Assembly: GCA_905234775.1 (NCBI GenBank)
Contig: CAJOJC010000048.1
Location: 1 to 18,888 of the forward strand
DNA length: 18,888 bases
Source of the DNA: an uncultured Bacteroidales bacterium
Lineage (GTDB): Bacteria > Bacteroidota > Bacteroidia > Bacteroidales > UBA932
Direction of reading: 5' to 3'
Below the pieces are notes generated by a model. That model saw only the letters and a list, made by a program, of their open reading frames with translations, searched no databases and was not told the DNA's origin. Shown here piece by piece: positions 1 through 18,888 of this stretch. Each line of letters opens with the position of its first letter. Positions within the stretch are counted from its first letter, which is position 1. Made by a program: the position numbers and the translations under genes.

Positions 1-1
1 T

Positions 2-76: not shown

Positions 77-81
77 CTCGG

Positions 82-2870: not shown

Positions 2871-2904
2871 AATCAGCCAAAGATAGTGATTTTTATCAAT
2901 CGCC

Positions 2905-4623
2905 CTACCAGCGTCCGCCCGGGCCGCCCGATGAACTGCTGCTGTACGAGCTCAGGGAGACGGAACTACCGCCCGTGGCCGTGGCGCCGATTATGCCCAT
3001 GCCGTTCCATATCTGCTCGCCGTCCGAGAAACTGACTCCCGAGCTGACTGCAGGCTTCGACGAGCCCGAAACAACGAGGGTGGTTCCACCGCTGGAGGGG
3101 GTCTTGAATCCGTACACAGTTTCGCCGACAGTAAGCGAATACCAGGTATTCTTGCTCCACGAACTTGCGCTGTAGCAGTCCTGGCTCAGGGACGATCCGC
3201 GCTCAAGGCCGCCGAGGGCGAAGATCGTTCCGCCGGAGACATATAGTTTCTTGCCGCCTTCGGTATTGGCGTCGATCGCGACCTCTGCTCCGCCCGAACA
3301 GACGGCATACACGACGCCGCCCTCGATGTAGCAGTTGCCGTTGGCGTCGAGGCCATCGTTCCCTGTAGAATATGCGCAGACAAAGCCGTCTTTGACGACC
3401 ATCTCGCCGGCCGAATTGATTGCGTCGTCGGTCGATTGGGCATAGACGGTGCCGCCGGTGATTTCGATATTGCCCTTGGACTCGATGGCTTCGTGGTTGG
3501 AGGCGGTTACCGTCAGGGTGCCGGCCGAGATGTAAAGGTTGCCGTCGCATTTGACGCCCTTGGCGCCCTTCGAATTGTCGGTCGAAGACGAACTCGCCCA
3601 GCGAGGGCCGCCACCAGGGCCACCCGGACCTCCGCCGGGGCCGCCTCCAGAAGAGCTGCCGTAATTCTCGCCGGTCACGGTCACGGTAGTCGTGCCGCCC
3701 TGGAAATAGGCGGGGCCGTCGCAGCTGATGCCTTTCCCGCCCTGGCCGGAACTCGAAACGGTCAGCTCGCCGCCCTGCATCACGAAGACCATGTCGGCCT
3801 TGACTCCCGCGCTGGCTTTGTAGTCCGCATCCTCGCTGTCGTATGCCGTTCCTCCGGAGACCGTGACGGTAGTCTTGCCTCCGGTGAATACGACCAGCGA
3901 GTCGGAGGTGATGCCCTTTTTCATCGCAGCCGTTGCCTTGGCGCTCAAGGTCCCGCCGTCTACTATGACTGCGTCCTTGCCGCGAATTGCATGGCCAACG
4001 CTCGAAGATGCATCGATTGAGACTTCGTCCGTTACCCTTATGTAATCATCCGACGCGAGCGCTGAATTTCCAGAGGCAGTGATTTTGAGCGCTCCGGTAC
4101 CGGAGAAAATCAACTGGCCTTCCGAGAAGAAGGCTGCTTTTTCATCTTCTTCTGCGGGAGTATCATAAGTTGAGCCGTCTTTGAGGGTATTTGCTCCGCT
4201 CAAGACTACGAAACAACGTTTTTTGCCTTGGTTGTTGATGGCCGCTCCCGAGGGATTGGTCAGGGTCAGGTCCTCCAGAGTGAAGGACTGTTTGTTGTTG
4301 GAATACGTCTTAAAGAATCCGTTAGAAGAGGAGCCGGTAAGGACATACGCCACCTTGTCTGTATAGTCGGTATTATTTACCGTTACTTTGTTCCCGTCGA
4401 CACTTACTATGCCGTTCTTGTCTCCTTCCACCTGAGCTTCAGCGCTCTCGGAGAAGGTAACTTTAATAGTGTAATCAAAGGAGGTACTGTCTATCTGATC
4501 TTCAGTATCGTCAATGACCGAGTAGGTCGTCCCTTCTTTCACTCCCGAGGAAAGTATGTCTTCCTTCCCGCATCCCGCGGCCGCTATCGCCGCTATAAGG
4601 ATCACTAATGCTTTCTGTTTCAT
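2905..4623 (-). CDS. Cthe_2159-like (DUF4353) carbohydrate-binding beta-helix lipoprotein
   Basis: I chose the Met at 4623, giving 572 residues starting MKQKALVILIAAIAAAGCGK, because it places a lipobox (AAAGC) after a proper signal. An in-frame Met 8 codons upstream would spoil the signal. The mature protein is built of beta-helix coils rich in G-x-L/V and small residues (ITGGTVYAQSTDDAINSAGE, DANGNCYIEGGVVYAVCSGG), matching the Cthe_2159 carbohydrate-binding family. The Clostridium thermocellum founder is reported to bind cellulose and pectin. Around residues 321-342 there is a Gly/Pro linker (GGGPGGGPGGPGGGPRW), and the C-terminus ends in a related GGPGGRW. It heads the operon with the VTC and DUF4956 genes, a neighbourhood also seen with CotH-type proteins. 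Likely a surface or periplasmic lipoprotein; its ligand is unknown. Confidence 0.85.
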   Translation of the reverse strand: MKQKALVILIAAIAAAGCGKEDILSSGVKEGTTYSVIDDTEDQIDSTSFDYTIKVTFSESAEAQVEGDKNGIVSVDGNKVTVNNTDYTDKVAYVLTGSSSNGFFKTYSNNKQSFTLEDLTLTNPSGAAINNQGKKRCFVVLSGANTLKDGSTYDTPAEEDEKAAFFSEGQLIFSGTGALKITASGNSALASDDYIRVTDEVSIDASSSVGHAIRGKDAVIVDGGTLSAKATAAMKKGITSDSLVVFTGGKTTVTVSGGTAYDSEDADYKASAGVKADMVFVMQGGELTVSSSGQGGKGISCDGPAYFQGGTTTVTVTGENYGSSSGGGPGGGPGGPGGGPRWASSSSTDNSKGAKGVKCDGNLYISAGTLTVTASNHEAIESKGNIEITGGTVYAQSTDDAINSAGEMVVKDGFVCAYSTGNDGLDANGNCYIEGGVVYAVCSGGAEVAIDANTEGGKKLYVSGGTIFALGGLERGSSLSQDCYSASSWSKNTWYSLTVGETVYGFKTPSSGGTTLVVSGSSKPAVSSGVSFSDGEQIWNGMGIIGATATGGSSVSLSSYSSSSSGGPGGRW

Positions 4624-4688
4624 GGCGTTCAAGTTTTTATTGTACACGCATATTTGTTTTGATGCCGCACATATTTCAAAACCGATGC

Positions 4689-4696
4689 CAAAATTA
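4689..4696 (-). promoter_or_regulatory. Candidate -7 box for the beta-helix/VTC operon
   Basis: On the minus strand this octamer reads TAATTTTG, matching the Bacteroidota TAnnTTTG element, about 65 bases upstream of the beta-helix start codon. No TTTG box sits at the usual 19-21 base distance, so the match could be chance in this AT-rich patch. Confidence 0.3.
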
Positions 4697-4714
4697 CAAA
4701 ATAATATTTGCCAA

Positions 4715-4980
4715 GGTATGTAAAACCGTCCGAATCACACACCAACCCCCTCAAAATCGCCCCTTGGTGTGTGGGGAAGCCTAAATCCCACACCAACCCC
4801 GCCGAAATGCAGAATTTCGCGGAAGGTCCCTGTCTATTCGCTCGCAGTGCGTGGCTATCGCCCTCCGCAATTTGGGTGATAGCCACGTTTTGGGCCTTTT
4901 TCGCTCCCATCACCCCCTGCGCGAGGGGTGATAGACACGCTCACTGCCTTCATCCACCAGTATCCTACCCTTGAAAGCGC
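4715..4980 (+). repeat. Structured interspersed repeat, copy A
   Basis: Bases about 4715-4943 match the reverse complement of 16978-17203 at roughly 90% by eye, apart from one short indel near 4837-4847. Weaker similarity (about 70%) runs on to about 4980. The repeat is full of inverted pairs: CACACACCAA (4736-4745) with TTGGTGTGTG (4764-4773); CGAAAT with ATTTCG around 4803-4818; and GTGGCTATCGCCC (4851-4863) with GGGTGATAGCCAC (4874-4886). Open frames cross it on both strands, but the indel between copies breaks them, so I read it as a non-coding structured repeat. Confidence 0.75.
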
Positions 4981-5570
4981 CGCGCCTAGCGTGAAAGACC
5001 GCCCGAAGGACCTGCGGCCGCTCCTGACGATAATCAAGTCGCGACCGGGAGTGTCCGCCAGGTACGATTTTGTCGAAGATCGCTCCTAAGGCCGCTCGCA
5101 GGAGTGCGTGCGGCCTCTCTCGACCCTTCGAAAAAATCGTCCCCCATTGTTTCTGACGCCGCGAGTGAAGCGGTACTGCGCAAAGGATGTCCTACCCTTC
5201 GCGGGGAGCGAGCTGGCAGGGGGAATATATATTCCAGCGGTAGAGAGAGCCGATATCGGGTATTCGGTCGGGACACCGCGTATTCGACTGGTCTAGCAGT
5301 AGCGCCGGAGGAGCGGGGACTCCCTCGAGCGGGCGTGGCCCTTATCATGCGGAGGATGACGCATCCCCCGATACCCCCTGCGGCCTTTCCACCTTTCCGT
5401 ATTTGCCTTCGGTCGCCTGATGGCGACTCACTATGCTTAGCTGAGGGTCCGAGCGAGCAAGGCGCAGACTTGCGAGACGAGTCCCGCTCGAGGGAGTCTC
5501 CGGCCGCAGGCGCAGAAGGAAAGGCCGACTGCACCCAAAACCCCGAATTCGGCGCCGACGAACTAAAAAA
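4981..5570. other. GC-rich intergenic stretch with no convincing gene
   Basis: Long open frames exist on both strands, but their translations are Ser/Arg/Pro/Gly-rich, lack domains and look like by-products of high GC. Two structures are visible. One is a 7-bp stem AGGCCGC/GCGGCCT (5089-5095 with 5110-5116). The other is a perfect 16-bp inverted pair GACTCCCTCGAGCGGG (5318-5333) with its complement at 5483-5498. I checked by eye for RNase P, tmRNA and SRP RNA signatures and saw none. A structured RNA or a decayed mobile segment is possible. Confidence 0.35.
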
Positions 5571-5606
5571 TTGATACTACTATGCGGGAAAATCCGCAGA
5601 GTAGTA
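5571..5606 (-). terminator. Terminator of the efflux operon (13-bp stem hairpin)
   Basis: TACTACTATGCGG (5575-5587) pairs with CCGCAGAGTAGTA (5594-5606) over 13 bp with one mismatch and a 6-base loop. Read on the minus strand the stem is followed by TCAATTTTTT, as expected of an intrinsic terminator, 36 bases after the stop of the last efflux-operon gene. The same 34 bases recur with a single change at 17339-17372. Confidence 0.65.
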
Positions 5607-5641
5607 CCAACTTTCTAAACGCATCAGGCAGGAGACCCCTA

Positions 5642-5935
5642 TCAGATTGCGCTGTCTACGGTCCAACTGAAGGCCCTGAGGCCGAGGTCCTCGAACTGAG
5701 TGTCCTTTTCGTGGAGGGCCTGAAGAAGCGGAGCGACTACCGAGTCGTCGACTACCGTAAGCATGGCGTGGTTCATGACCGGCCATGCGTGGGAGCCGTA
5801 GTGGGGCTCGCCAGTTTGGGAGCCTCTTCCGCTGACTTCAGTCCAGCGGGTGAAACCCTTCTGGCCGAAGCTCTCGAGGATTTCGGCTATCTCTTCGTTG
5901 TATGCCTGATTGTAGGCTATGAATACGGCTTTCAT
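5642..5935 (-). CDS. PG0541-like transporter-associated small protein
   Basis: I start at the ATG at 5935 (97 residues, MKAVFIAYNQAYNEEIAEIL) because it overlaps the RND permease stop as ATGA; the longer upstream reading runs through permease codons. The protein is soluble, with a ferredoxin-like pattern of strands and helices reminiscent of PII-type regulators. Conserved-looking segments are GFTRWTEVSGRGSQTGEPHYGSHAWP and VMNHAMLTVVDDSVVAPLL. Proteins of this type (founder PG0541 of Porphyromonas gingivalis) are annotated as transporter-associated because they follow RND pump genes in Bacteroidota, exactly the context here. A regulatory or accessory role for the pump is inferred; no ligand is known to me. 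Confidence 0.75.
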   Translation of the reverse strand: MKAVFIAYNQAYNEEIAEILESFGQKGFTRWTEVSGRGSQTGEPHYGSHAWPVMNHAMLTVVDDSVVAPLLQALHEKDTQFEDLGLRAFSWTVDSAI

Positions 5936-8900
5936 TGTTTGGCGAGTTTTTTCTGTTGTCTTCTTTCCTGCCTTACGGCAAACACACAGTAGATTGTAGG
6001 AATGAGCACCAGGGTCACGAGGGTGGAGATTGAAAGTCCCCAGCACACCACGACTCCTAGGCCCTTCCACATCTCGGATCCCTCGCCGAGGCCGATGGCC
6101 ATCGGGAGCATACCGAGAACGGTAGTGAGGGTAGTCATGAGAATAGGACGCAGACGGCTGCGGGCGGCCATAGCCGAGGCCTCAACAGCTCCGTATCCGC
6201 GCTCGCGCAGCAGAATCGTATAGTCTATCAGAACGATACCGTTCTTAACGACTATACCCATAAGGATAATGACGCCGACCAGACCCATCACTCCGATTGC
6301 TCCGCCATTAATCAGCATTCCAACCGCAACACCCACTAGGGCGAACGGGATAGAGAACATGATCACGAACGGAGAAAGGAACGACTCGAACTGCGCCGCC
6401 ATCACTATGTAGACAAGCACTACGATAAGGATCAGGAGGATAATCATATCGTGGAACATCTCCTGCTGGTCTTCGTAGTCGCCGGCGATTACCGTCGTAA
6501 GGCCGTCCGGAATCTCGGTGTCGGCGATAATCGCCTCCGTGCGTTTAACCGCATCGCTGAGGGCCATTCCGCTCTTGAGGATGCCGCTTACGGTGATGAG
6601 ACGCTCGCGGTCCTTGCGCTCGATGGTCGGGGGAACCTCGGCCTCAACGAGGGTGCCAAGCTCCTTCATCTTCACAGGCCTGCCCTGGGCGTTCATGATG
6701 GTGATGTTCTCCATGTCCTCGATCGAGCGGCGGAATTCGGGCGCATAGCGCACGCGGATGTTGTATTCCTCGCCGTCTTCGCGGTAGAACGACGCTACCT
6801 GGCCCGACATGGCCGCGCTGAAAGCGGCACCGGCGGTAGAAGAAGTCAGGCCGTTGAGGGCAAGCTTCGTGCGGTCGAAGTTGATCTGGTATTCGGGCGT
6901 GTACTCGTCGCGAGAGAGGGTGACCTGGACGAACGCGGGCTCCTTGAGCATCTGCTCCTGGAGGAGGTGTGCCGCGCGGTCGGTATCATGGAAATCGTAG
7001 CCGTATATCTCCACGTCCACGGTGGTAGCGCCGCCCATTCCGCCGCCGCCCTCGAAGACCATGGCCTTACGGATCTGGGGATAGCGGGTGAGGATGCCGC
7101 GGATGACGGTAGAGATTTGGTCCGAACTGCGCTTGCGGGTGCCGACCGTGCCCACGTTGAGGTTCATCGAGATGACGTGGGTGCCGTTGCTCTGCATGTT
7201 CGCGAACGTATTGTCCGTATCCGCCTGGCCGTAGGTGATGTTGATGATCTTCAACTCGGGCACGGCCGCGACTATGTCGTTGTAGATGTCTTCCGCGACC
7301 TGGGCGGTAGTGGCCTGGGCCGTGCCGACCGGCAGGTTGATGTTGACCCTGATTCGGCCTTCGTCGCTCTTCGGGAAGTATTCGGTCTTCATCTGGGGGA
7401 TGTAGAGGCCGGCGACCGCGGCGAAGATGATGAATGCGCCGATCACCACCCAGCGGCGGTGGGTCGTACACCAGCGGATGAGCCGCCCATAGCCGGCCGA
7501 TATCTTATCGAGAAGCCGGTTCCACGGCCCGAAGAAGACATCGTAGAACTTGCCGCTGCGCTTGCCCGAACGAAGGAAGCGCGAGCAGAGCATCGGGACC
7601 AGGGTGAGGGCCGCCGTGGTAGAAACGACCATGATGATACTCACGATCCAGCCGAGCTGCCTGAACATGACGCCGGTGAAGCCGCGGATCATGGTCAGCG
7701 GGAGGAAGACGCAGAGCATCGTGAGGGTCGAAGCCACGACCGAGATCGAGACTTCGCCAGTTGCGAGCACGGCCGCCTCCTTGGGCTTCTCGCCGCGGTC
7801 GAGATGGGTCGTTATGTTCTCGAGGACGACGATGGCGTCGTCCACGACCATTCCGATCGCAATCGAGAGGGCGGACATCGAGATGATGTTAAGCGTGTTG
7901 CCGGTCGCGAACAGGTACACGATCGAGGCCAGCAAGGCCACCGGAATCGACAGAACGATTATGAAGGTGGCGCGCCATCTTCCGAGGAAGAGGAACACTA
8001 CGAGCATAACCACCAGGAAGGTGATGATGATCGTGTCGCGCAGGGTGTTGATCGTGTTGATGATATTGGTAGAACCGTCAACCACAGTCTCTATCGCGAT
8101 GTCCGAAGGGAGGTTGCGCTCAATCTTGACGAGCTGTTTCTTAATCTTGCGGATTACATCGACCGTGTTGGCGCCGGACTGCTTCTGGATGATGATACGG
8201 GCCGAACGGCGGCCGTTGGTGTAAGATTCCTGCTCACGCTCCTGGGTACCGTCGCGAAGGGTTGCTACGTCGCGCAGGTAGACTATCTTTCCGCCGACCG
8301 TGCTGAGCACGATGTCAAGCATTTCTTCCGGCGACGTAAACTCTTTCTGTACACGGAGGGTGTAAGTATCGGTTCCTACGTCGATGTTGCCGGAAGGAAT
8401 GTTGCGGTTTTCAGCGGCGATGATCTGCGCTATTGAACTTACTGTTAGTCCGTATGCTTCGAGTTTATTCGGGTCGCAGTAGATCTGGATCTCGCGGGTG
8501 GGCGCACCTACAACGGAGATTGTTCCGACGCCCGTCACGCGCGCCAGCGGGGTGGCGAGGCGGTCGTCCAGAATCTTGTCCAGGCCGGGGAGCGATTCGT
8601 CGGCAGTAGCCGACAGGATCATGATTGGCATGTCGTCTGCACTGAACTTGAAGATGGTGGGCAGGCTCGCGCCGTCGGGCAGCGAGGTGCTGACCATGTC
8701 CAGTTTGTCGCGGACGTTGTTGGTCGCCTCTTCGATATCAGTTCCGTATTCGAAGGTAAGGGTAAGGAGGCTGATGTTTTCCTTGGAATTGGAGGTCAGC
8801 TCCTTAAGGTCGGAGACACCGTTGAGGGCGTTTTCCAGGACCTTGGTAAGGTTGTTCTCGATGTCTTCCGCGCTGGCTCCGGGGTATGAGCTCATGACCA

Positions 8901-9036
8901 TGATGGTGTTGCTCTCGAACTCCGGGAACTGCGCGATGCTCGTCTTGGTCAGCGAGTAGACGCCGAAGATGATGAACACCACGAAGATAAGCGCGGTGGT
9001 GACCGGTTTATTGACTGATGTACGGTAGATGCTCAT
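5932..9036 (-). CDS. RND efflux permease, AcrB/MexB (HAE1) type
   Basis: At 1034 residues this has the normal length for the family. It starts with the classic MSIYRTSVNKPVTTALIFVV first membrane helix and FPEFESNTIMV. The paired aspartates of the proton relay are present in GMVVDDAIVVLENI (D399, D400), and the matching lysine is K931 in VVKNGIVLID, equivalent to AcrB D407/D408/K940. Two large periplasmic loops alternate with two groups of membrane helices. The protein would form the inner-membrane trimer that exports drugs, bile salts or other amphiphiles using the proton gradient. Its start overlaps the fusion-protein stop (TAATG), and the PG0541-like gene overlaps its end. The substrate cannot be read from the sequence. 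Confidence 0.95.
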   Translation of the reverse strand: MSIYRTSVNKPVTTALIFVVFIIFGVYSLTKTSIAQFPEFESNTIMVMSSYPGASAEDIENNLTKVLENALNGVSDLKELTSNSKENISLLTLTFEYGTDIEEATNNVRDKLDMVSTSLPDGASLPTIFKFSADDMPIMILSATADESLPGLDKILDDRLATPLARVTGVGTISVVGAPTREIQIYCDPNKLEAYGLTVSSIAQIIAAENRNIPSGNIDVGTDTYTLRVQKEFTSPEEMLDIVLSTVGGKIVYLRDVATLRDGTQEREQESYTNGRRSARIIIQKQSGANTVDVIRKIKKQLVKIERNLPSDIAIETVVDGSTNIINTINTLRDTIIITFLVVMLVVFLFLGRWRATFIIVLSIPVALLASIVYLFATGNTLNIISMSALSIAIGMVVDDAIVVLENITTHLDRGEKPKEAAVLATGEVSISVVASTLTMLCVFLPLTMIRGFTGVMFRQLGWIVSIIMVVSTTAALTLVPMLCSRFLRSGKRSGKFYDVFFGPWNRLLDKISAGYGRLIRWCTTHRRWVVIGAFIIFAAVAGLYIPQMKTEYFPKSDEGRIRVNINLPVGTAQATTAQVAEDIYNDIVAAVPELKIINITYGQADTDNTFANMQSNGTHVISMNLNVGTVGTRKRSSDQISTVIRGILTRYPQIRKAMVFEGGGGMGGATTVDVEIYGYDFHDTDRAAHLLQEQMLKEPAFVQVTLSRDEYTPEYQINFDRTKLALNGLTSSTAGAAFSAAMSGQVASFYREDGEEYNIRVRYAPEFRRSIEDMENITIMNAQGRPVKMKELGTLVEAEVPPTIERKDRERLITVSGILKSGMALSDAVKRTEAIIADTEIPDGLTTVIAGDYEDQQEMFHDMIILLILIVVLVYIVMAAQFESFLSPFVIMFSIPFALVGVAVGMLINGGAIGVMGLVGVIILMGIVVKNGIVLIDYTILLRERGYGAVEASAMAARSRLRPILMTTLTTVLGMLPMAIGLGEGSEMWKGLGVVVCWGLSISTLVTLVLIPTIYCVFAVRQERRQQKKLAKQ

Positions 9037-10070
9037 TACTCGATGACGTTTACTCTGGTGCCGTTGCGCAGGACGCTCTGGCCGCTGGTAACTACTGTTT
9101 CGCCTTCACTGAGGCCGCTAAGGACTTCATACTGGTTGCCGAGGTGACGGCCGAGCTCCACCACCCTCACTGAGACGGTCTGATCCATCTCGTCGGATTC
9201 GAGCACGAAGACCGTCTTGGTTCCGGATCCCTGCTGCTTAACGATTGCGGTATCCGGGATGAGGATGCGGCTGACACTGCCGAAGGTTATCTTGGCGCTG
9301 CCGTACATTCCCGGGCGAAGCTCACGCGAGGCGTTGGGGATGTTGATTTCCGCGGTGACGGTATGAGTGACAGGGTCGATGGTGGGATGGATCAGGGCCA
9401 CCTGGCCATTGAAGGTTTTTCCGGGAAGGGCCTCGGTTACGATCTCGGCCTTTACGCCCTTTTTAAGGAGCGAGTAGTCTTTTTCGGAGACCGAGACGAG
9501 AGCCTTAAGGGGGTTGATCTGCTGGACCACGAACAGCGGCGATGACATCGAGTACATGTCGCCCTGGTCGTAATTACGGGCGGTGATCACTCCGTCGAGG
9601 GGGCTCTTGAGAACCGTGTTTTCCTTCAGGTTCTGGTAGGCGCTCTTCCTGACTTTGTAGTTGAGCTCTACCGCCTCAAAGTCGGACTTCGAGACTCCGC
9701 CCTTCTCGTAGAGAGCCTTGGTGCGTGTGTAGTCGCTCTCGGCGTTCTTGAGCTGGAGTTCGGCCTGATCGAGGTTGGTGCGCTCCATCTCGGCGAGGAC
9801 CTGGCCCTTGCGGACGTTGTCTCCGATCTCAGCCTTGATGCTGACGATACGGCCGCTGGCCTGAGGGGCGATATTGTTCACCGCGTAGGCCTGGAGGGTC
9901 ACCGAGTAGGTGTTGTCCAGAGTAACCGTCTGTTTCTGGGCTACGATGGTTTTGACATTAGGGAGGAGGAAGGCCCTGTCGTCCTGAGTCTTAGTCTGTT
10001 TCTGGCCTTGGCCGCATGAGGCGAGAGCGAGGACAGCCGCTGCGAGCGATAAAGATTTTACTGTATTCAT
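9036..10070 (-). CDS. RND efflux periplasmic adaptor (membrane fusion protein, lipoprotein)
   Basis: The 344-residue product has a lipoprotein signal (MNTVKSLSLAAAVLALASC, Cys19). It then shows the usual adaptor order: a barrel-sandwich/lipoyl half (NIAPQASGRIVSIKAEIGDNV), a coiled-coil hairpin (TNLDQAELQLKNAESDYTRT through the SDFEAVELNYKVRKSAYQNL region), the second lipoyl half (VLKSPLDGVITARN), a beta-barrel with the TIDPVTHTVTAEINIPN motif, and a membrane-proximal domain. It bridges the inner-membrane pump and the TolC-like channel. The start overlaps the upstream TolC-like gene as ATGA, consistent with one polycistronic transcript. Confidence 0.93.
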   Translation of the reverse strand: MNTVKSLSLAAAVLALASCGQGQKQTKTQDDRAFLLPNVKTIVAQKQTVTLDNTYSVTLQAYAVNNIAPQASGRIVSIKAEIGDNVRKGQVLAEMERTNLDQAELQLKNAESDYTRTKALYEKGGVSKSDFEAVELNYKVRKSAYQNLKENTVLKSPLDGVITARNYDQGDMYSMSSPLFVVQQINPLKALVSVSEKDYSLLKKGVKAEIVTEALPGKTFNGQVALIHPTIDPVTHTVTAEINIPNASRELRPGMYGSAKITFGSVSRILIPDTAIVKQQGSGTKTVFVLESDEMDQTVSVRVVELGRHLGNQYEVLSGLSEGETVVTSGQSVLRNGTRVNVIE

Positions 10071-11485
10071 TTGGTTTGCTTTTCTTCTTCGAGGAAATCG
10101 TTGCCGAGAGAGCCTTCAAGGCTGGCCTTGGCAGTAAGGTAGTTGAATATCGACTGGCCTGCCGTGAGCTGAGCCTGCGTAAGGGCCAGCTGGGCGTCGT
10201 TGAGGTCGGTCAGAGTACTGCCGCCTATCTCGTAGGAGGCGAGGGTGATGTCGTAGGATTTGCGCGAGGCCTCGAGGGCGGCGTCTGCGGCATCGAAACT
10301 GCGCATGGCGGTCTCCATCGTATTAAGGCTCTGGCGAATGGCGATTCTGAGGCGCCTCTCGGTCTCGAGCTTCTGAATGTCGAGTTCTTCTGCCTGGAGC
10401 TTTGCTGTCTTTATGTTGTGATAGCGCTGGCCGCCGGCGAAGATGGGGATGTTGAGGGTGAGGCCCACGAACGAATACGGAGTCCAGTTGTAGTTCGAGA
10501 AGTCGAAGTCGTTGGCCATGGCGCTGTACTGATAGGTGAAGCCCACGGACAGGCTGGGGAGATTGGCGTACTTGCTGGACTTTATCGCCGAGGCTACCTG
10601 AGAGGCCTGGAGTTCGAGCTGGCGCATCGAACTGTTGTTTTCGAGGCTGAGTTCGTTCTCTCCGTAGAGGACGGTCATTTCTTCCGCGTAGTCGTGGAGT
10701 TCGCCCTTGGTGTCTATCTGAAGGTCGAGGTCGACTCCCATCACGGCCTTAAGCTGCCAGAGGGCGAGGCTTACGGCGTTCTCGGAGTCGTACATGTTGG
10801 GGATAGCGTTGGCGAGAGTAGTGAGGGCGCGGGCGAGTTCGAGGTCGGAGGCTTTCTGGGCGTCGTGTCTCATCTGAATCTTCTCGCAGTTTGCGAGGGC
10901 GTTTTCGTAGACCTCTTTATAAACTTTCGCCGCTTCTTTGGCGAAGAGGACCTGATAGTAGGCCTGCTTCACCTGAGTTACCATCTCGAGGCGGCTGCTG
11001 CGGGCTTTTTCGACCGCGAGTTCTACATCTTGTCCGCTGAGATTGAGCGATTCCCAGAGTTGGAAGTTTATAAGGGGCATCGAGGCGCTGAGGCCCGCTG
11101 AGAATGAATTCCAACGGCCGACTTCGATGCCTTTTTTCGAGCTGGAGGAGCTGGAACTGCCGGAGCTGGAACCGCCGCCACCGCCCGAGCCCGAGCCCGA
11201 GCCGCCGGTTATCGCGGACATGTCGAAGTCCATGTACATGACCTGCTTTTCAATCGTTCTCTGGAACGAAGCAGATCCGTCTACCTTCGGGAACAGCGCC
11301 GCGTACGAGCCTTTCTTGGCGTACTGGGCGCGTTCGATTTCCTTATCTGCTACCTTTACGGATATGTTTTCGCTCAGCGCTATCTGCAGCGCCTGCTCCA
11401 GGGTGATTTCAGTTGTGTCTCTCTGCTGCTGGACCTGCGTCGTATCAACCGCCGCCAGAGCAACTATACTTACTAGAACTAACAT
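10067..11485 (-). CDS. TolC-family outer-membrane efflux channel
   Basis: This 472-residue protein has the two-fold TolC organisation: ITLEQALQIALSENISVKVADKEI near the N-terminus and a matching second half, with helices such as KLQAEELDIQKLETERRLRI and SYEIGGSTLTDLNDAQLALTQ. The ATG at 11485 is the only usable start, since an in-frame stop lies a few codons upstream. The resulting signal peptide (MLVLVSIVALAAVD) is short and has no basic N-terminus, which is unusual. Around residues 91-118 the first outer loop contains a pure Gly/Ser run ending in SSSSSSSKKG. It is the first gene of the efflux operon. Confidence 0.92.
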   Translation of the reverse strand: MLVLVSIVALAAVDTTQVQQQRDTTEITLEQALQIALSENISVKVADKEIERAQYAKKGSYAALFPKVDGSASFQRTIEKQVMYMDFDMSAITGGSGSGSGGGGGSSSGSSSSSSSKKGIEVGRWNSFSAGLSASMPLINFQLWESLNLSGQDVELAVEKARSSRLEMVTQVKQAYYQVLFAKEAAKVYKEVYENALANCEKIQMRHDAQKASDLELARALTTLANAIPNMYDSENAVSLALWQLKAVMGVDLDLQIDTKGELHDYAEEMTVLYGENELSLENNSSMRQLELQASQVASAIKSSKYANLPSLSVGFTYQYSAMANDFDFSNYNWTPYSFVGLTLNIPIFAGGQRYHNIKTAKLQAEELDIQKLETERRLRIAIRQSLNTMETAMRSFDAADAALEASRKSYDITLASYEIGGSTLTDLNDAQLALTQAQLTAGQSIFNYLTAKASLEGSLGNDFLEEEKQTK

Positions 11486-11506
11486 ACAAGCTACTATTCA
11501 ACTTTC

Positions 11507-11521
11507 TTCGTGCGGCACGAA
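11507..11521. promoter_or_regulatory. Palindrome TTCGTGC-G-GCACGAA, possible operator
   Basis: A perfect 7-bp inverted repeat around one base lies 22 bases upstream of the efflux operon start codon. It shares the core CGTGC/GCACG with the palindrome at 11552-11567. Size and position fit a dimeric repressor site or a small leader hairpin. No regulator gene is in the window. Confidence 0.4.
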
Positions 11522-11551
11522 TGATTGGGCGTGTTTGCCACAACAATCGTG

Positions 11552-11567
11552 CCCGTGCGCGCACGGG
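11552..11567. promoter_or_regulatory. Perfect 16-bp palindrome CCCGTGCGCGCACGGG
   Basis: This self-complementary sequence lies between the divergent efflux operon and lgt, just inside the predicted efflux transcript. Its centre is about 45 bp from the centre of the related palindrome at 11507-11521. It could be an operator or, as RNA, a strong leader hairpin. Confidence 0.4.
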
Positions 11568-11576
11568 AAGCGAGTC

Positions 11577-11584
11577 CAAAGATA
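11577..11584 (-). promoter_or_regulatory. Candidate -7 box for the efflux operon
   Basis: On the minus strand the octamer is TATCTTTG, a match to TAnnTTTG, giving a leader of about 85 bases before the TolC-like ATG. No TTTG box is seen at the ideal -33 distance. It sits 13 bases from the oppositely directed box for lgt. Confidence 0.4.
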
Positions 11585-11597
11585 ATGAGATTTTAGT

Positions 11598-11605
11598 TAT
11601 ATTTG
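11598..11605 (+). promoter_or_regulatory. Candidate -7 box for lgt, implying an almost leaderless mRNA
   Basis: TATATTTG matches TAnnTTTG and ends 7 bases before the lgt ATG. If used, transcription would begin within about 0-3 bases of the start codon. The -33 partner is not evident. Confidence 0.4.
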
Positions 11606-11612
11606 CAGCACT

Positions 11613-12503
11613 ATGTTGGATTTACTGGCTATTCATTGGAATATCGATCCGGTGTTGATTCATATCGGGTCGCTCGGAATCAGGTGGTATTCGCTGCTGT
11701 TTGTTTCCGGATTCATTTACGGTATTTACATCCTGCGGAATTTCTACCGCAGGGAGGGTGTGAGCGAGGATATACTCGATCCGCTTCTGTATTCGATGCT
11801 GATTGCGGTTATCGTAGGCGCTCGACTCGGACACTGCATTTTCTATGATCCGGGATACTATTTCGGAACCTGGCAGGGTTTCGGCGAGGTGTTTATGCCA
11901 TGGAAGGGCGGTCTCGCGAGCCACGGCGGCGCGATCGGTATCTTGCTGGCGATGTGGTGGTACACCAATAAGTATGGGAAGAGAGAGGGATTCGACCTGC
12001 TTTGGATACTCGATAAGCTGGTGATTATCATCTGCTTCGCGGGAGCATGTATCCGTCTCGGTAATTTCTTCAATTCGGAGATTTACGGCTACAATACTAA
12101 CCTGCCATGGGGCGTGATTTTCGAGCGCACAGGAGATCCTAATCCGAAGCATCCGACCATGCTCTACGAGGCGCTGTGCTATATTGTTCTTGGCCTGGTA
12201 TTGCTGTTCATCTACAACAAGAAGAACGACAAGATGTTCCGCGGAGAATACCTCGGAATCTTCTTTACATTCTGCTTCGGCAGCCGTTTCCTTCTGGAAT
12301 TCACCAAAGCTCCGTCGAGAATCCTCTTCACCATCGGCGATACCGTCATCAACATGGGCCATATGCTCAGCATACCCTTCATTATCGCCGGTATTGTAAT
12401 CTGGATTTTAAGCGTTCGCAGCGGCAAACCTTCCAAGATCATCCGCGAGCCCGTCAAGCCCGCGAAGAAGGAACCCACCCACTACGCGAAACCGCTTAAT
12501 TAA
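11613..12503 (+). CDS. lgt: Prolipoprotein diacylglyceryl transferase
   Basis: Lgt transfers diacylglyceryl from phosphatidylglycerol to the lipobox cysteine of prolipoproteins in the inner membrane. The 296-residue product starts with the family-typical IHWNIDPVLIHIGSLGIRWY. It contains GARLGH (69-74), the GGLASHGG motif with H104, the signature RLGNFFNSEIYG containing the essential arginine, HPTMLYE, and RFLLEFTK near the end. About seven hydrophobic segments are spread along it, followed by a basic C-terminal tail rich in Lys and Pro (PSKIIREPVKPAKKEPTHYA). The start is fixed by the conserved N-terminus. It is transcribed divergently from the efflux operon. The many lipoproteins in the window are its expected substrates. 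Confidence 0.96.
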   Translation: MLDLLAIHWNIDPVLIHIGSLGIRWYSLLFVSGFIYGIYILRNFYRREGVSEDILDPLLYSMLIAVIVGARLGHCIFYDPGYYFGTWQGFGEVFMPWKGGLASHGGAIGILLAMWWYTNKYGKREGFDLLWILDKLVIIICFAGACIRLGNFFNSEIYGYNTNLPWGVIFERTGDPNPKHPTMLYEALCYIVLGLVLLFIYNKKNDKMFRGEYLGIFFTFCFGSRFLLEFTKAPSRILFTIGDTVINMGHMLSIPFIIAGIVIWILSVRSGKPSKIIREPVKPAKKEPTHYAKPLN

Positions 12504-12559
12504 ATCAGTGTTAACATTTTTTGTGTTTTTTCGTCTTATTGAGGAAAAGCGATAACGAA

Positions 12560-13060
12560 ATGAAAAAACACATCCTTCTTACCCTGATATGCCTCGTCTC
12601 TCTGGCGGGCATTTCTTTTGGCGCGACTCCGCTTACCAGGGCGCGCCTTTCGTCATTGGTCAAAGACTGCCGCTCTTATGAGGGAGCGGAGGTGGTTCGC
12701 CTCGGGAATTTCACCACAGGCGCGGTGAAAGGACTGGTTTGGATTGCCGGTTCGGGCGATCCGGACACCAAGGAATTCCTGAAGATGTGCAAGGGAATTA
12801 AAGGCATATCAATTTTGGAGTTTGAAGACTGCTCGGCCGCAGACCGCGCCGCCATCAACGACAAAATCGAGCATCTTCTGAAAAATACCGACGTGCTCAT
12901 GGACGTTAAGGACGAGGGAGAAAGGATGCTTATTTACGGAGTCTTTGACGAAAAGAGCGGCGATGTTCAGGATTTCATTCTTTATTCACCTGACAACTGC
13001 GCGTTGATCTGCCTATTCGGCAGGATTTCGATGGACGCTGTTTCAGAAATGGTAAAATGA
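12560..13060 (+). CDS. DUF4252 secreted protein, first of two
   Basis: The Met at 12560 gives a good signal peptide (MKKHILLTLICLVSLAGISFG) and 166 residues; an in-frame Met 13 codons upstream would add a polar prefix and is less likely. The mature part has the DUF4252 pattern: a basic helix (ARLSSLVKDCRSYEGAEVVRLG), a central GIKGISILEFEDCSAADRAAI segment, and a C-terminal VLMDVKDEGERMLIYGVFDEK strand pair leading to CLFGRISMDAVSEM. Function of the family is unknown. Its TGA overlaps the sigma-factor ATG (ATGA). With the second DUF4252 gene it brackets the sigma and membrane-protein genes, so the four form one unit. I saw no clear TAnnTTTG box in the 56 bases after lgt. Confidence 0.8.
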   Translation: MKKHILLTLICLVSLAGISFGATPLTRARLSSLVKDCRSYEGAEVVRLGNFTTGAVKGLVWIAGSGDPDTKEFLKMCKGIKGISILEFEDCSAADRAAINDKIEHLLKNTDVLMDVKDEGERMLIYGVFDEKSGDVQDFILYSPDNCALICLFGRISMDAVSEMVK

Positions 13061-13533
13061 GCCCGGAGCAGTTCAATAGCAGTTATCTGTCGCTCGCCCC
13101 GATTCTCTACAAGGTGGCGTTCTACATCCTCGAGTCCGAAGAAGAAGCTAAGGATGTGGTTCAGGACGCCTTTGTGAAACTTTGGAAAGACCGCGGTACG
13201 CTGGGAGACGTCAACTCTCCGAAAGCCTACTCCATAAGGCTGGTCAAGAACCTCTGCCTGGACAGAATCAGAAGGCAAAGGCTCGAGTTCCCCGAGGAAC
13301 TTCCAGAGCGGATCTCCGACAACGGGCAGGACGACGAGATAGATCAGAAAGAGCGCCTCAACAAAGTGATGGAGGCGATCAAGGCTCTGCCCGACCGGCA
13401 ACGCGAAATACTCTGGCTCCGGACGGTGGAAGGCTTATCCTACGAAGAAATCTCGAACCGTCTCGGAATGAAACCGCTTACACTGCGCGTATTGCTGACG
13501 CGGGCGCGCTCAAAAATCAAAATGAAGGTATGA
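13057..13533 (+). CDS. RNA polymerase sigma-70 factor, ECF subfamily
   Basis: The 158-residue protein has the two ECF regions only. Region 2 is FNSSYLSLAPILYKVAFYILESEEEAKDVVQDAFVKLWKDR with KAYSIRLVKNLCLDRIRRQ. Region 4 is VMEAIKALPDRQREILWLRTVEGLSYEEISNRLGMKPLTLRVLLTRARSKIK, including the helix-turn-helix that reads the -35 element. It starts by ATGA overlap with the preceding DUF4252 gene and ends by ATGA overlap with the next membrane-protein gene. In Bacteroidota such sigma factors are usually held by a membrane-bound anti-sigma factor; the small membrane protein downstream is the obvious candidate. Regulon and signal are unknown; autoregulation of the operon is likely by analogy. Confidence 0.93.
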   Translation: MSPEQFNSSYLSLAPILYKVAFYILESEEEAKDVVQDAFVKLWKDRGTLGDVNSPKAYSIRLVKNLCLDRIRRQRLEFPEELPERISDNGQDDEIDQKERLNKVMEAIKALPDRQREILWLRTVEGLSYEEISNRLGMKPLTLRVLLTRARSKIKMKV

Positions 13534-13934
13534 AACAGATAAAAGACATAGAAAACATGGACTGGGAAGCCCTTGAGCAGGCGGCCGAGGCCGGGCAGGC
13601 GAAAGTGCCCGAAGACCTCGACGGCAGCATCAGGGCCGCGATTCTTGCCCATGAATTATCGGAGGCAGGAGAGACCGCCCCGAAACGGAGGCTGCCGGCC
13701 GGCGCATTCTACGGATTCGCGTTCGCCGCGGTGGTAGCGGCCGTGATCACGGTTGGGATAAGCCGTAAAAATGCCCTTCAGGATACCTTCGACGATCCGT
13801 ACCTTGCCTATGCGGAAGTCCAGAAAACATTCAGGCAGATTTCAGAAAAAATGAACGTCGGGCTCGAGCTCGCCTCGGAAGCCCGCACGACCGCTGAAAA
13901 ACCGGCGGAAATCCTTAAAAAAATCAACGACTAA
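13530..13934 (+). CDS. Single-span membrane protein, putative anti-sigma factor
   Basis: The ATG at 13530 overlaps the sigma-factor stop (ATGA) and gives 134 residues; a longer upstream reading in this frame only runs through the sigma gene. The N-terminal half (MKQIKDIENMDWEALEQAAE, then KVPEDLDGSIRAAILAHEL) is acidic and soluble. A single membrane segment follows (AFYGFAFAAVVAAVITVGI, about residues 68-88), then a short outer part with a helix (YAEVQKTFRQISEKMNVGL). No zinc-binding ZAS motif is present. Topology and position fit a membrane anti-sigma factor that binds the sigma factor through its cytoplasmic half. This is an inference from layout. Confidence 0.75.
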   Translation: MKQIKDIENMDWEALEQAAEAGQAKVPEDLDGSIRAAILAHELSEAGETAPKRRLPAGAFYGFAFAAVVAAVITVGISRKNALQDTFDDPYLAYAEVQKTFRQISEKMNVGLELASEARTTAEKPAEILKKIND

Positions 13935-13935
13935 A

Positions 13936-14418
13936 ATGAAAAAGTTCATATTGATAGCGGCCATGATAATGATGTCGGTCGCAGCATTCGCCCAGAGCGG
14001 CAGGAGCATTTATCAGAAATATTCGGATGCCGAGAAGGTAAGCGCCGTGTATATTTCGCCGGCCATGTTCAAGCTGATAGGCAAAATTCCGGATCTTGAG
14101 ATCTCAGACGAAAATGTGGACCTTACTCCCGTCATTAAATCCCTGAAAGGGCTCTATCTGATCAACAGCGCCAATCCGGACATCAGAGAGGGTGTCATAA
14201 AGGATGTCGACGCATTCGTATACTCGGCAGACTACGAACTCCTGATGGAGGCCAAGGAAGAGGGCGAGACAGTAAGAATCTACACCGTCGGAAACGAACA
14301 GACAGTGAAGGGATTCGTGATGCTGGCCTGCGAACCCGAAGAACTGACCTTCATCTGCATCGACGGTGAGATGGAAAGAGACCAACTGGACGTCATCTTC
14401 GCCAAGATGATGCGTTAA
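13936..14418 (+). CDS. DUF4252 secreted protein, second of two
   Basis: This 160-residue product has a signal peptide (MKKFILIAAMIMMSVAAFAQ). The body resembles the upstream DUF4252 protein in order: SVYISPAMFKLIGK-type start, SLKGLYLINSANPDIREGVI, YELLMEAKEEGETVRIYTVG, and a C-terminal LTFICIDGEMERDQLDVIFA matching ALICLFGRISMDAVSEMV of the first copy. It begins one base after the stop of the membrane-protein gene, so it belongs to the sigma operon. The pair is probably an old duplication. It may be a periplasmic sensor or the output of the sigma factor. It ends 12 bases before the convergent GH43 pseudogene, with no obvious terminator. Confidence 0.82.
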   Translation: MKKFILIAAMIMMSVAAFAQSGRSIYQKYSDAEKVSAVYISPAMFKLIGKIPDLEISDENVDLTPVIKSLKGLYLINSANPDIREGVIKDVDAFVYSADYELLMEAKEEGETVRIYTVGNEQTVKGFVMLACEPEELTFICIDGEMERDQLDVIFAKMMR

Positions 14419-14430
14419 ACTGATAATACA

Positions 14431-16747
<2,317 letters not shown>

Positions 16748-16770
16748 TAAGGTTACAATTATATAACACA

Positions 16771-16803
16771 CAAATCTACGAAATGTAACAAGAAAAAGCC
16801 AAA
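16771..16803 (-). promoter_or_regulatory. Bacteroidota-type promoter TTTG-N21-TAGATTTG
   Basis: On the minus strand TTTG (16800-16803) is followed after 21 bases by TAGATTTG (16771-16778), matching both the -33 and -7 consensus at allowed spacing. Transcription would start around 16765, about 17 bases before the lipoprotein ATG at 16747. It is the best promoter match in the window. Confidence 0.65.
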
Positions 16804-16809
16804 AACGCG

Positions 16810-16840
16810 CATACCCTCCGGCAAAAAACCGAAGGGTATG
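16810..16840. terminator. Terminator-like hairpin next to the pgk relic
   Basis: CATACCCTCCGG (16810-16821) pairs with CCGAAGGGTATG (16829-16840) over 12 bp with one imperfect pair. On the minus strand it is followed by GCGCGTTTTT. It lies 37 bases beyond the stop codon of the pgk tail relic in the relic's reading direction, where a pgk terminator would be expected. Confidence 0.5.
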
Positions 16841-16852
16841 TACGTTGTGGGG

Positions 16853-16869
16853 TCCGGATCAAGTCCGGA
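16853..16869. repeat. Short palindromic repeat TCCGGATCAAGTCCGGA
   Basis: Two TCCGGA arms flank TCAAG. The reverse complement, TCCGGACTTGATCCGGA, resembles short palindromic intergenic repeats seen in many bacterial genomes. It sits between the pgk relic and the terminator-like hairpin. Confidence 0.4.
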
Positions 16870-16876
16870 ATGAGGG

Positions 16877-16936
16877 TTACTTCCTGATCGCTGCGATGCC
16901 GGGGAGCTCCTTGCCTTCGAGGGCCTCGAGCATGGC
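16877..16936 (-). pseudogene. Relic of a pgk 3' end (last 19 codons plus stop), inverted relative to pgk
   Basis: On the minus strand these 60 bases encode [19 protein letters not shown] and a TAA, identical in protein to the last 19 residues of the resident pgk (18671-18730). The DNA differs at 8 of 60 positions in 7 codons, and every change is synonymous (for example CGC to AGG, GCT to GCG). Similarity stops at the GCC ATG codons; the upstream DNA belongs to repeat copy B. Because the stop codon is kept and a terminator-like hairpin follows, it looks like the end of a diverged pgk left by recombination or brought in by an element, not a recent local copy. Confidence 0.85.
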
Positions 16937-17203
16937 GCAGCGCGATCGAGGGTCGGACATTGGTGTATTGAGGTCTTTAGCGTGGCTATCACCCCCTGCG
17001 AAAGTGGTGATGGGAGCGAAAAGGGCCCAAAACGTGGCTATCACCCGAATTGCGGAGGGCGATAGCCACACCCTGCGATAGACAGGGACCTTCCGCAAAA
17101 TGCTGCATTTCGGCGGGGTTGGTGTGGGATTTAGGCTTCTCCACACACCGAGGGGTGATTTTGAAGTGGTTGGTGTGTGATTCGGGCGGTTTTACACACC
17201 AAG
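16935..17203 (-). repeat. Structured interspersed repeat, copy B (inverted relative to A)
   Basis: The reverse complement of 16978-17203 matches 4715-4943 at roughly 90% by eye, with an indel near 17071-17079. Weaker similarity extends through about 16935, right up to the pgk relic. Conserved pairings include GTGGCTATCACCC (17034-17046) with GGGCGATAGCCAC (17057-17069). In the small CGAAATG/CATTTTG stem a change is compensated by a G-T wobble. Also paired are TTGGTGTGT (17170-17178) and ACACACCAA (17194-17202). Confidence 0.75.
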
Positions 17204-17205
17204 GC

Positions 17206-17302
17206 GTTCAATGTGTGAGAAAAGGGGGCACACCTTGAACATCAGAAAGCGTGTGAAGGGGTTTTGCGTTCAAAGTGTGCGGCATATAATCACACCTTGG
17301 AC
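17206..17302 (+). repeat. Two tandem related hairpins upstream of pgk
   Basis: Hairpin one is GTTCAATGTGTG (17206-17217) with CACACCTTGAAC (17229-17240). Hairpin two, 62 bases on, is GTTCAAAGTGTG (17268-17279) with CACACCTTGGAC (17291-17302). Arms match 11 and 10 of 12 positions. They continue the GTGTG/CACAC theme of repeat copy B but are absent from copy A. Confidence 0.6.
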
Positions 17303-17338
17303 AAATAGAGCGGGGATCTTCTGATAAAACCGCAAAAG

Positions 17339-17372
17339 TTGATACTACTATGCGGGAAAAACCGCAGAGTAG
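17339..17372. repeat. Second copy of the terminator-like hairpin
   Basis: These 34 bases match 5571-5604 with one change (in the loop). The stem CTACTATGCGG/CCGCAGAGTAG has one mismatch. Here it lies about 105 bases upstream of pgk. Neither side has as strong a T-run as the efflux copy, so it is called a repeat and not a terminator. Confidence 0.6.
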
Positions 17373-17435
17373 CATGAAGTTTTCAACTGAGGCAGGGGGG
17401 ATGGAACAAATAATGGATATCACGGAAAAAATTGC

Positions 17436-17443
17436 TACCTTTG
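17436..17443 (+). promoter_or_regulatory. Candidate -7 box for pgk
   Basis: TACCTTTG matches TAnnTTTG and would place the transcript start about 28 bases before the pgk ATG. A TTTGAA-AA-TTCAAA dyad (17449-17462) follows at the expected start site. No -33 TTTG is seen at the standard distance. Confidence 0.4.
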
Positions 17444-17476
17444 AAGGATTTGAAAATTCAAACATTTCTATAGCAT

Positions 17477-18730
17477 ATGCAACAGTTTATCGATTCCTAT
17501 GATTTCGCTGGCAAGAAAGCCATCGTCCGTGTTGACTTCAATGTTCCGCTGAACGAAAAGTTCGAAATCACCGACGACACCCGTATCCGTGCCGCCATCC
17601 CTACCCTTAAGAAAGTTCTCGCCGGAGGCGGTGCCCTCATCATCATGTCCCACCTCGGCCGTCCGAAGGGAGTAGACGCCAAGTTCTCCCTCAAACATAT
17701 CATCGGCCGCGTAAGCGAGCTTCTCGGAGTTCCCGTACAGTTCGCTGACGACTGCCAGAAAGCCAAGGCACAGGCAGACGCCCTCAAGCCCGGCGAGGTC
17801 CTCCTTCTCGAAAACCTCCGCTTCTACGCAGAGGAAGAAGGCAAGCCCCGCGGACTTAAAGAAGATGCAACAGATGAGGAGAAGAAGGCAGCTAAGGCTG
17901 TTGTCAAGGAGTCCCAGAAGGGCTTCGTGAAGACCCTCGCTTCATATGCAGACTGCTATATCAACGACGCATTCGGAACAGCACACCGCGCCCACGCCTC
18001 TACCGCCCTTATCGCTGACTATTTCCCGAACGACAAGATGTTCGGTTACCTGATGGAAGGCGAGATCAAGGCTATCGACAACGTCCTTAAGAATGCCCAG
18101 CACCCCTTCACCGCTATCATCGGCGGATCTAAGGTCTCCTCTAAGCTCGCAGTTCTTGAGAACATGCTCGATAAGGTCGACAACCTCATCATCGGCGGCG
18201 GTATGAGCTACACCTTCATCAAGGCCCAGGGAGGAAAGATCGGCAACTCGCTCCACGAAGACGACCTGATGCCCAACGCACTCGAGATCCTCGCCAAAGC
18301 AAAGGAGAAGGGCGTAAAGGTATGGCTCTCTTTCCAGACCGTTATCGCTGACGCTTTCTCTGCAGACGCAAACGTCGATACAGTAGACGCTATGAACATC
18401 CCCGACGGTTGGGAGGGTGTCGACACCGGCGCTGAGTCTCTCAAGCAGTGGAAGGATGTCATCCTCGGCAGCAAGACCATCCTCTGGAACGGTCCTGTCG
18501 GAGTATTCGAGATCGACAAGTTCGCAAACGGAACTCTTGAGATCGCCCGCGACCTCGCAGAGGCTACCGAGAAGGGCGCTTACACCCTCGTCGGCGGCGG
18601 CGACTCCGTTGCAGCTGTTACCCGTATGGGCTTCGCAAAGAAGGTCAGCTATGTCAGTACCGGTGGCGGTGCTATGCTCGAGGCTCTCGAGGGCAAGGAA
18701 CTCCCCGGCATCGCAGCTATCCGCAAATAA
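17477..18730 (+). CDS. pgk: Phosphoglycerate kinase
   Basis: The enzyme interconverts 1,3-bisphosphoglycerate plus ADP with 3-phosphoglycerate plus ATP in glycolysis, in the cytoplasm. At 417 residues it has normal length. Substrate-side motifs are [26 protein letters not shown] and [20 protein letters not shown] follows in the N-terminal domain, then the hinge and nucleotide side: [34 protein letters not shown] and the glycine-rich [10 protein letters not shown]. It ends in [19 protein letters not shown]. Codon use is strongly biased (CTC, CGT/CGC, GAG), as expected for high expression. It stands alone: repeats upstream and an IS3 end 62 bases downstream. A 60-bp inverted relic of its tail lies 540 bases upstream. 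Confidence 0.98.
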
Positions 18731-18792
18731 TGCGTGTTGTCTAATAGGCTGACGCTCAATCATTTACATAAAAAGACCCTCCGCTTTATTGA

Positions 18793-18888
18793 TGTGACCC
18801 CCAAAAGTTGGACGGTTTAACATTAGTTACGAGGCCTTAGATTGGAACAGAGCTCGGTATTGCACCGGGCTCTTTCCTTTTAGCCTCA
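18793..18888 (-). mobile_element. End of an IS3-family insertion sequence (partial)
   Basis: From TGTGACCCCCAAAAGTTGGA (18793 on) the sequence resembles the terminal inverted repeat of IS3/IS150-group elements, which start with TG and carry a CCCCCAAAAGT core. The end of a transposase frame lies just inside it on the minus strand. The exact first base (18793 or 18795) is uncertain, and the rest lies beyond the window. Confidence 0.7.
18827..18888 (-). CDS. IS3-family transposase (OrfB) C-terminus, partial
   Basis: The minus-strand frame ends RLKGKSPVQYRALFQSKAS and then TAA (18827-18829). The S-P-V-Q-Y-R motif close to the end is typical of the DDE transposase OrfB of IS3-family elements. 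Only about 19 residues are in the window, so the catalytic triad and intactness cannot be judged. The stop lies 34 bases inside the presumed element end, a normal arrangement. Confidence 0.75.
   Translation of the reverse strand, partial: RLKGKSPVQYRALFQSKAS

Follow-up and report, generated by a model that had tools for sequence, protein, structure and literature searches.

A probable remnant of a displaced pgk gene in the native pgk position, beside an inverted resident pgk gene, in an uncultured Bacteroidales bacterium

The DNA analyzed here, hereafter the window, is a stretch of 18,888 nucleotides from an uncultured Bacteroidales bacterium (NCBI GenBank assembly GCA_905234775.1, contig CAJOJC010000048.1, positions 1 to 18,888). 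It carries a stump of a pgk gene in the position and orientation that pgk has in relatives, with the terminator kept, the encoded peptide unchanged and a microhomology join to an intergenic array. The complete pgk gene beside this relic is inverted and represents a different allele, close to that of another lineage (locus L001). We lean toward the view that the old gene was displaced by a foreign, L001-like pgk in inverted orientation and that only its tail and terminator remained at the ancestral locus; the order of events is one that we infer. As a rule, the replacement of a core gene is deduced only from trees; in this DNA, the displaced allele has left a piece that can still be read in place, together with its join.

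The genus of the source is taken to be Cryptobacteroides, because the genomes of four related loci (L008, L039, L046, and L051) are named Candidatus Cryptobacteroides. In what follows, G numbers designate genomes of this genus, C numbers their contigs and L numbers pgk loci (L139 is the locus of G037).

The relic and the resident gene

The following features surround the relic:

16877..16936, minus strand: pgk 3' relic, the stop and the 19 codons before it from an earlier pgk allele, in ancestral pgk position and orientation
16810..16840, minus strand: intrinsic-terminator hairpin behind the relic, 13 pairs and a T-run, folding z -6.7
17425..17476, plus strand: promoter region of pgk, also conserved in L001, L003, and L004
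17477..18730, plus strand: resident complete pgk, 417 amino acids (Pfam PF00162), close to L001 and opposite in orientation to the usual order
18731..18789, no strand: 3' flank of the resident pgk, different from the relic flank
18790..18888, minus strand: end of an IS element with the C-terminus of its transposase; the window stops inside the element

Read on the minus strand from 16936 to 16877, the relic is GCC ATG CTC GAG GCC CTC GAA GGC AAG GAG CTC CCC GGC ATC GCA GCG ATC AGG AAG TAA, and its peptide is that of codons 399-417, plus stop, of the resident pgk (17477-18730). An earlier, sequence-only reading of this DNA had described 19 codons and a stop that encode the same peptide as the pgk end, with 8 of 60 bases different and all of them silent, and this description proved exact: the differences are spread over seven codons and cause no amino-acid change (52/60 bases identical). 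The inverted match between the relic and the pgk end covers 65 nt at 85%, with a BLASTN E value of 1.6e-12 in a search within the window. Similarity ends precisely at the stop codon, beyond which the flanks differ, the pattern expected of alleles with separate flanks.

Two simple sources of the relic were rejected. A recent tandem duplication is ruled out by the eight silent differences together with the different flanks. For a neutrally decaying copy, the eight differing sites were placed randomly in 200,000 copies per setting, with kappa from 1 to 10; the peptide was kept in 0 to 3e-5 of the simulated copies, so that the probability of all differences being silent is at most 3 in 100,000. 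An 89-codon ORF with a GTG start (16877-17146), in which the relic lies in frame, runs through the adjoining repeat and is not regarded as a gene.

The terminator-like hairpin noticed earlier behind the relic was recovered as a 13-pair stem with a T-run on the minus strand (z -6.7), and is probably the old pgk terminator. When the relic flank was compared with all loci fetched, a single 21-nt match was obtained (E 0.008), which is uninformative; a 23-25-nt piece of this flank is also present in G047 and, three times, in G050. No function of the stump is apparent beyond that of a possible terminator. The gene product would be unaffected by the rearrangement and, as far as can be judged from the DNA, cell function would be unchanged.

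The 3' flank of the resident gene (18731..18789) had no match at E <= 0.05 among the loci fetched by then. The IS end that follows, which we take to belong to an IS3-family element and to its transposase, is 95% identical over 99 nt to a stretch of G001:C47 in which a 262-aa ORF ends. Since the window ends at this element, right behind pgk, the other end of the rearrangement lies outside it.

Gene order at the pgk locus

Three further features serve to compare gene order:

5932..12503: block of acrB (minus strand), hlyD (minus), tolC (minus), and lgt (plus), which faces the pgk 3' end in most scorable relatives; synteny anchor
14431..15944, minus strand: GH43 gene, frame-split, directly behind pgk in L001; synteny anchor
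15956..16747, minus strand: putative lipoprotein gene, 263 amino acids, between the relic terminator and GH43, with no Pfam match

The relatives are the best 80 of 391 pgk loci, with one genome per species. Residue identity of Pgk to that of the window is 99% for L001, 98% for L002, and 96% for L003 and L004, which are sister species of the window source; the relatives that come next are at 88% or below. The common order is pgk, lgt, tolC, hlyD, acrB, and an efflux gene lies downstream of pgk on the same strand in 46 of the 56 loci that could be scored (by tolC, or else by acrB or hlyD; 29 of 85 rows were unscorable). Transposed to the window, this native order predicts a minus-strand pgk that ends near 16877, which is the site of the relic. 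Likewise, window positions 16857-16936 align with the end of the complete pgk of L001, with GH43 beyond in both, and in L001 and L002 the tail of the complete gene matches the relic in the same place and orientation. Inversion of an older pgk locus, one of the options of the sequence-only reading, is thus supported to the extent that the relic sits at the native place and the resident gene is inverted.

The reversed orientation of pgk is found in 8 of the 56 loci (the window, L006, L036, L046, L053, L064, L071, and L078). On the pgk tree, the native and moved states require at least nine changes over these 56 loci; in 200 shuffles of the labels, 7-10 changes were counted (mean 9.3). The observed number is about that of the shuffled labels, which indicates that pgk moves are scattered and that this neighborhood has been rearranged recurrently among relatives. 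These counts depend on a pgk tree that horizontal transfer may distort, and on a 40% identity cut that excludes L072 (30% tolC match); with L072 included, there are 57 loci and 10 changes.

Between GH43 and the relic, the 263-aa lipoprotein gene has a match in only 6 of 300 genus genomes (best identity 45%) and has no equivalent at the same place in L001; a cluster of 14 member sequences, P0001, is 98% identical to the lipoprotein. The GH43 gene (14431-15944, minus strand) consists of two overlapping frames in the window and of one 515-aa ORF in L001; the split may reflect either a pseudogene or a sequencing error. Adjoining the pgk start of L001, L003, and L004 is a gene that we presume to encode a methyltransferase.

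Other irregularities were observed at these loci. The lgt gene between pgk and the efflux genes or tolC has the opposite orientation in 24 of 44 cases and the same orientation in 20. Its orientation changed at least 8 times over the pgk tree, which makes it a second frequently inverting gene at the pgk locus (L001-L080). In G037 (L139), the pgk stop abuts the stop of a convergent P-II-like gene with zero intergenic DNA (5877-5878), a stop-to-stop contact that suggests another breakpoint at the pgk end. On the acrB side of the window, positions 1-182 and 5543-11148 were compared with L004:14733-20699. Positions 1-182 match L004 0.2 kb past the stretch that matches window 5543, and positions 183-5542, with the DUF4956, VTC, and Cthe_2159 genes, have no match at the corresponding place in L004.

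Two pgk alleles of different origin

The resident pgk is unusually close to that of L001. Between the window and L001, 25 of 209 4-fold sites of pgk differ (0.12), whereas the other nine pgk pairs among the window and L001-L004 have a 4-fold divergence of 0.33-0.43. For the same two genomes, 4-fold divergence is 0.42-0.61 in tolC, hlyD, acrB, and lgt, and 0.43-0.69 in four small neighboring genes. A similar closeness to L001 is seen for GH43, whose two pieces have values of 0.26 and 0.11. The low divergence of pgk and GH43 points to a recent exchange of DNA between the window and L001 lineages and, because GH43 lies behind pgk on the same strand in L001, part of this exchange probably took place in the native arrangement. 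Replacement of the pgk allele, another option raised earlier, is supported by this shift of the resident gene toward L001.

The relic has another affinity. The resident tail differs from L001 at 1 of 60 bases and the relic at 7, and the relic is 59/60 identical to the pgk tails of both L005 and G037 (L139). The 57 coding bases of the relic were placed by likelihood on a pgk tree built without these columns, and the 15-row L005/L019 clade received a weight of 0.998 vs. 1.7e-5 for the clade of the window and L001-L004. In a leave-one-out control with 20 rows of these two clades, the seven tails that reached a weight of at least 0.99 for the L005/L019 clade were all true members, and members of the window clade never exceeded 0.271 for it; own-clade weight could be low, as for L002 (0.005) and L029 (0.07). 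On a tree that included the tail columns, L019 received the most weight (0.31) and the window clade 2.5e-5. When a 510-column tree that included the relic was subjected to an AU test, constrained trees scored above the free one, whose search had not converged. The 57-nt placement is thus moderate evidence that the codons of the relic fit another Cryptobacteroides clade. Together with the silent-only differences and the comparison of loci, it bears out the earlier proposal that the tail derives from a pgk of another lineage, one that had been under selection there.

The join to a dispersed array

The features at the join are the following:

16924..16938, minus strand: relic/array junction, with microhomology GCGCC nn GCTCGAGG (13/15) between the array and pgk (as in G037)
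16939..17401, no strand: dispersed intergenic array that runs from the relic to the pgk promoter (repeat 16934-17205, hairpin 17334-17372)
4710..4986, no strand: second copy of the array repeat, inverted

Three copies of the array in G001 continue past GCGCTGCGCC with GAGC.., and it is there that the window switches to the pgk tail; the full microhomology GCGCC nn GCTCGAGG is found in two of these three copies. The array next to pgk has 94.5% identity to the copies in G001:C47 and G001:C61, 86.5% to that in G001:C65, and 87% to the other copy in the window, which is itself 82-87% identical to all copies. No array was found upstream of pgk in the L001 locus. The array and pgk may have come jointly from an L001-like source; subfamilies of the array could also explain the 94.5% value without transfer. 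In its general structure, the array (window 4710-5604 and 16934-17401; G001 C47, C61, and C65) combines a repeat of the GATAGCCACG type with a hairpin around ATACTACTATGCGGG.

The tail does not belong to a dispersed repeat family. A 27-nt pattern from it, with at most two mismatches, matched 71 of 300 genus genomes, with a single tail in each save for G005 and G006, which have two; a smaller tail-pattern search gave a match in 11 of 12 genomes. The sequence-only reading had set its interpretation against a tail repeated at loci unrelated to pgk, and against a recent tandem pgk duplication in sister genomes. Neither was encountered, the former with the 27-mer pattern in the 300 genomes, the latter in the fetched stretches of the 80 loci, 0 of which hold a second pgk.

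A degenerate LPGIAA pattern matched 367 of 400 genus genomes; among the matches listed, some genomes had second matches, about as often, judged visually, as with the reversed-pattern control. The sole second-match genome fetched, G351, owed its two tail matches to two near-identical contigs (99.99% over 7,774 bp). No genome with two pgk genes in the window arrangement was seen among those searched with the tail patterns, and the junction 27-mer was found 0 times in viral contigs. In nine loci with a moved gene (L036, L043, L046, L051, L053, L064, L070, L071, and L078), no tail match was better than E 0.22 in the search for further relics; two matches of E 0.024, in L064 and L071, lie within the 60 nt before the tail. 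Across the 80 loci, a second copy of the tail was sought with the last 33 pgk bases of each locus (at least 25 matches, inside the fetched stretch), and was present in two loci only, L005 and L006.

A second case in L005 and L006

In these two loci, a putative lipoprotein ORF (346-347 aa) has the second tail as its final 8-9 codons:

L005:3202-4245, minus strand, and L006:13220-14260, plus strand: lipoprotein ORF that ends with the pgk tail PGIAAIRK plus stop

This ORF has matches in 16 of 300 genus genomes. Among 16 readable homologs (a 17th match is a fragment), the pgk tail is absent from 14 and present in L005 and L006 only. The nearest homolog without it, in G037, ends in TDYLLPGE*, and the end of this G037 ORF has CTCCCCGGC in common with the pgk tail. 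The end of a gene that was left behind can become the end of an unrelated protein.

Compared with G037, the multi-gene segment of L005 between the pgk tail and the 346-aa ORF is inverted, and the relic tail stays on the acrB side. Both ends of this segment carry identical pgk-tail bases (28/28); the similarity of the tails stops at the stop codon, and the flanks are unrelated. The L005 relic with about 60 nt behind it (3142-3229) is 92% identical, over 90 columns, to the 3' end of the complete pgk of G204 and its hairpin, and about 0.3 kb of extra DNA separates this relic from the P-II-like gene. On sequence comparison, the anatomy of L005 is that of the window: an old tail and terminator in place, a complete pgk turned around and a microhomology join. 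The 346-aa ORF and its neighbor are 81-82% identical between L005 and G037, below the 94-97% of pgk and acrB, which suggests that the part with the 346-aa ORF was probably exchanged separately.

In L006, the order is different again: its two pgk tails are direct repeats separated by 3 kb, a third arrangement that would require additional inversions. The interval between its tails holds an ORF that we presume to be CotH-like, a 234-aa ORF, and the 346-aa ORF; no recombinase was noticed there by inspection.

Possible origins of the relic

Under the favored reading, an L001-like pgk with its promoter, perhaps accompanied by the array, would have entered beside the old gene in divergent orientation, and the cell would briefly have carried two pgk genes. 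A deletion between GCGCCgaGCTCGAGG in the array and GCGCCatGCTCGAGG in the old pgk (as in G037) would then have eliminated the old promoter together with codons 1-398, so that the tail and terminator were left. This displacement is the most economical reading for the window. Against it stand the closeness of GH43 to L001, the brevity of the 57-nt relic, a resident 3' flank with no match among the loci fetched, and the failure to see a genome with two pgk genes among those searched with the tail patterns. An inversion with duplication would take an additional step, and it suits L005 better. In this case, pgk would have been turned around by a staggered or copying inversion that placed a copy of the tail at either end, after which the resident gene was overwritten by an L001-like allele through homologous recombination. 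The multi-gene inversion of L005 relative to G037, with 28 identical tail bases at both ends in L005, speaks for such a process, as do published duplications at bacterial inversions (described in passages of PMC8963470 and PMC4671568) and the allele shift of the resident pgk, which is established independently. We nevertheless consider it rather unlikely for the window, since a copying event would not favor similarity that ends at the stop codon between unrelated flanks, as in both the window and L005, and since the eight silent differences call for the separate second step. The relic could also be the edge of an imported fragment, in which a pgk tail and terminator of another clade, perhaps with the 263-aa lipoprotein gene, were joined illegitimately beside a pgk that was never lost. 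The relic codons that fit the L005/L019 clade agree with this, and so does a lipoprotein gene that is rare (6/300) and lies between GH43 and the relic, where L001 lacks it. This origin is improbable, however, as it leaves unexplained both the inversion of pgk and the ancestral position and orientation of the relic; moreover, G006, the sole genome with a lipoprotein match that could be placed in the L005/L019 clade, has the homologs on C14 and C17 and pgk on C4.

It is very unlikely that the contig was misjoined inside the array and that the relic and the inverted pgk are not true neighbors. The array is multicopy and the window ends in an IS element, but the array and pgk share 5 exact bases directly at the junction (13/15 in total), which argues against a repeat-collapse join; L005 has the same anatomy with no match to the array, and the relic would be real regardless of a misjoin. 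An integrative element with its attachment site at the pgk 3' end and a restoring tail of its own, the remaining option of the sequence-only reading, finds some agreement in the direct repeats of L006 and in the silent differences typical of restoring tails. We regard it as extremely improbable, because integration at a 3' end leaves direct repeats and the tails are inverted in the window and in L005, because, apart from an IS transposase piece that closes the contig, no integrase family was detected among the 18 window proteins scanned, and because the L006 interval appeared on inspection to be devoid of recombinase. A narrow literature search found no paper on pgk as an integration site. With low probability, we also envisage that inversions recur at the pgk 3' end in Cryptobacteroides and are partly reversible. 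Recombination between coding tails would flip pgk and leave or swap tails, and left tails would be re-used as C-termini of other genes, such as the 346-aa putative lipoprotein of L005 and L006; the history of L006 could include a flip back.

Comparison with known systems

Integrative elements that target the conserved 3' ends of genes typically carry restoring tails with silent differences. The window resembles them in its duplicated gene tail that preserves the protein, but the relative orientation of the tails is wrong in the window and L005, direct repeats occur in L006 only, and no integrase was found among the window proteins scanned. Invertible (phase-variable) DNA is known in Bacteroidales, and here too inverted repeats flank a segment that is found both ways among relatives. 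In contrast to such DNA, the repeats of the window are coding tails only 85% alike, second tails are rare (2/300 genomes), and no invertase family was found in the scanned proteins. The literature search returned no paper on inversion in Cryptobacteroides.

DNA duplication associated with inversion, a process reportedly first described in 2011, is similar in two respects: inverted copies of pgk lie at the ends of a segment (60 nt in the window, 28 nt in L005), and this segment is inverted with respect to relatives (pgk vs. the efflux block in the window; L005 vs. G037). The window copies, however, are not recent duplicates as they stand, with eight silent differences and flanks that differ past the stop. 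The two window tails fall in different clades, which speaks against an origin from a single duplicated stretch unless the resident gene was overwritten later; in L005, the copies are identical (28/28). Among the published descriptions that we found, this process, named in a passage of PMC8963470 and mentioned in one of PMC4671568, is the closest.

The window can finally be set beside xenologous gene displacement, in which a horizontally acquired homolog takes the place of a native gene, usually through in-place homologous recombination and with no stump left behind. As in such displacements, the resident pgk is far closer to another lineage (L001) than its neighbors other than GH43 are, as judged on this contig, and the displaced homolog is reduced to 19 codons, a stop and a terminator at the ancestral place. 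Unlike them, the new gene of the window is inverted and the 3' end and terminator of the old one survive. Remnants of this sort, together with the repeated rearrangements around pgk, are of use for work on how gene order evolves and on how an essential gene withstands a break within its coding sequence. Neither displacement nor inversion with duplication makes this case a new kind of system; it is best read as a fossil of a gene replacement.
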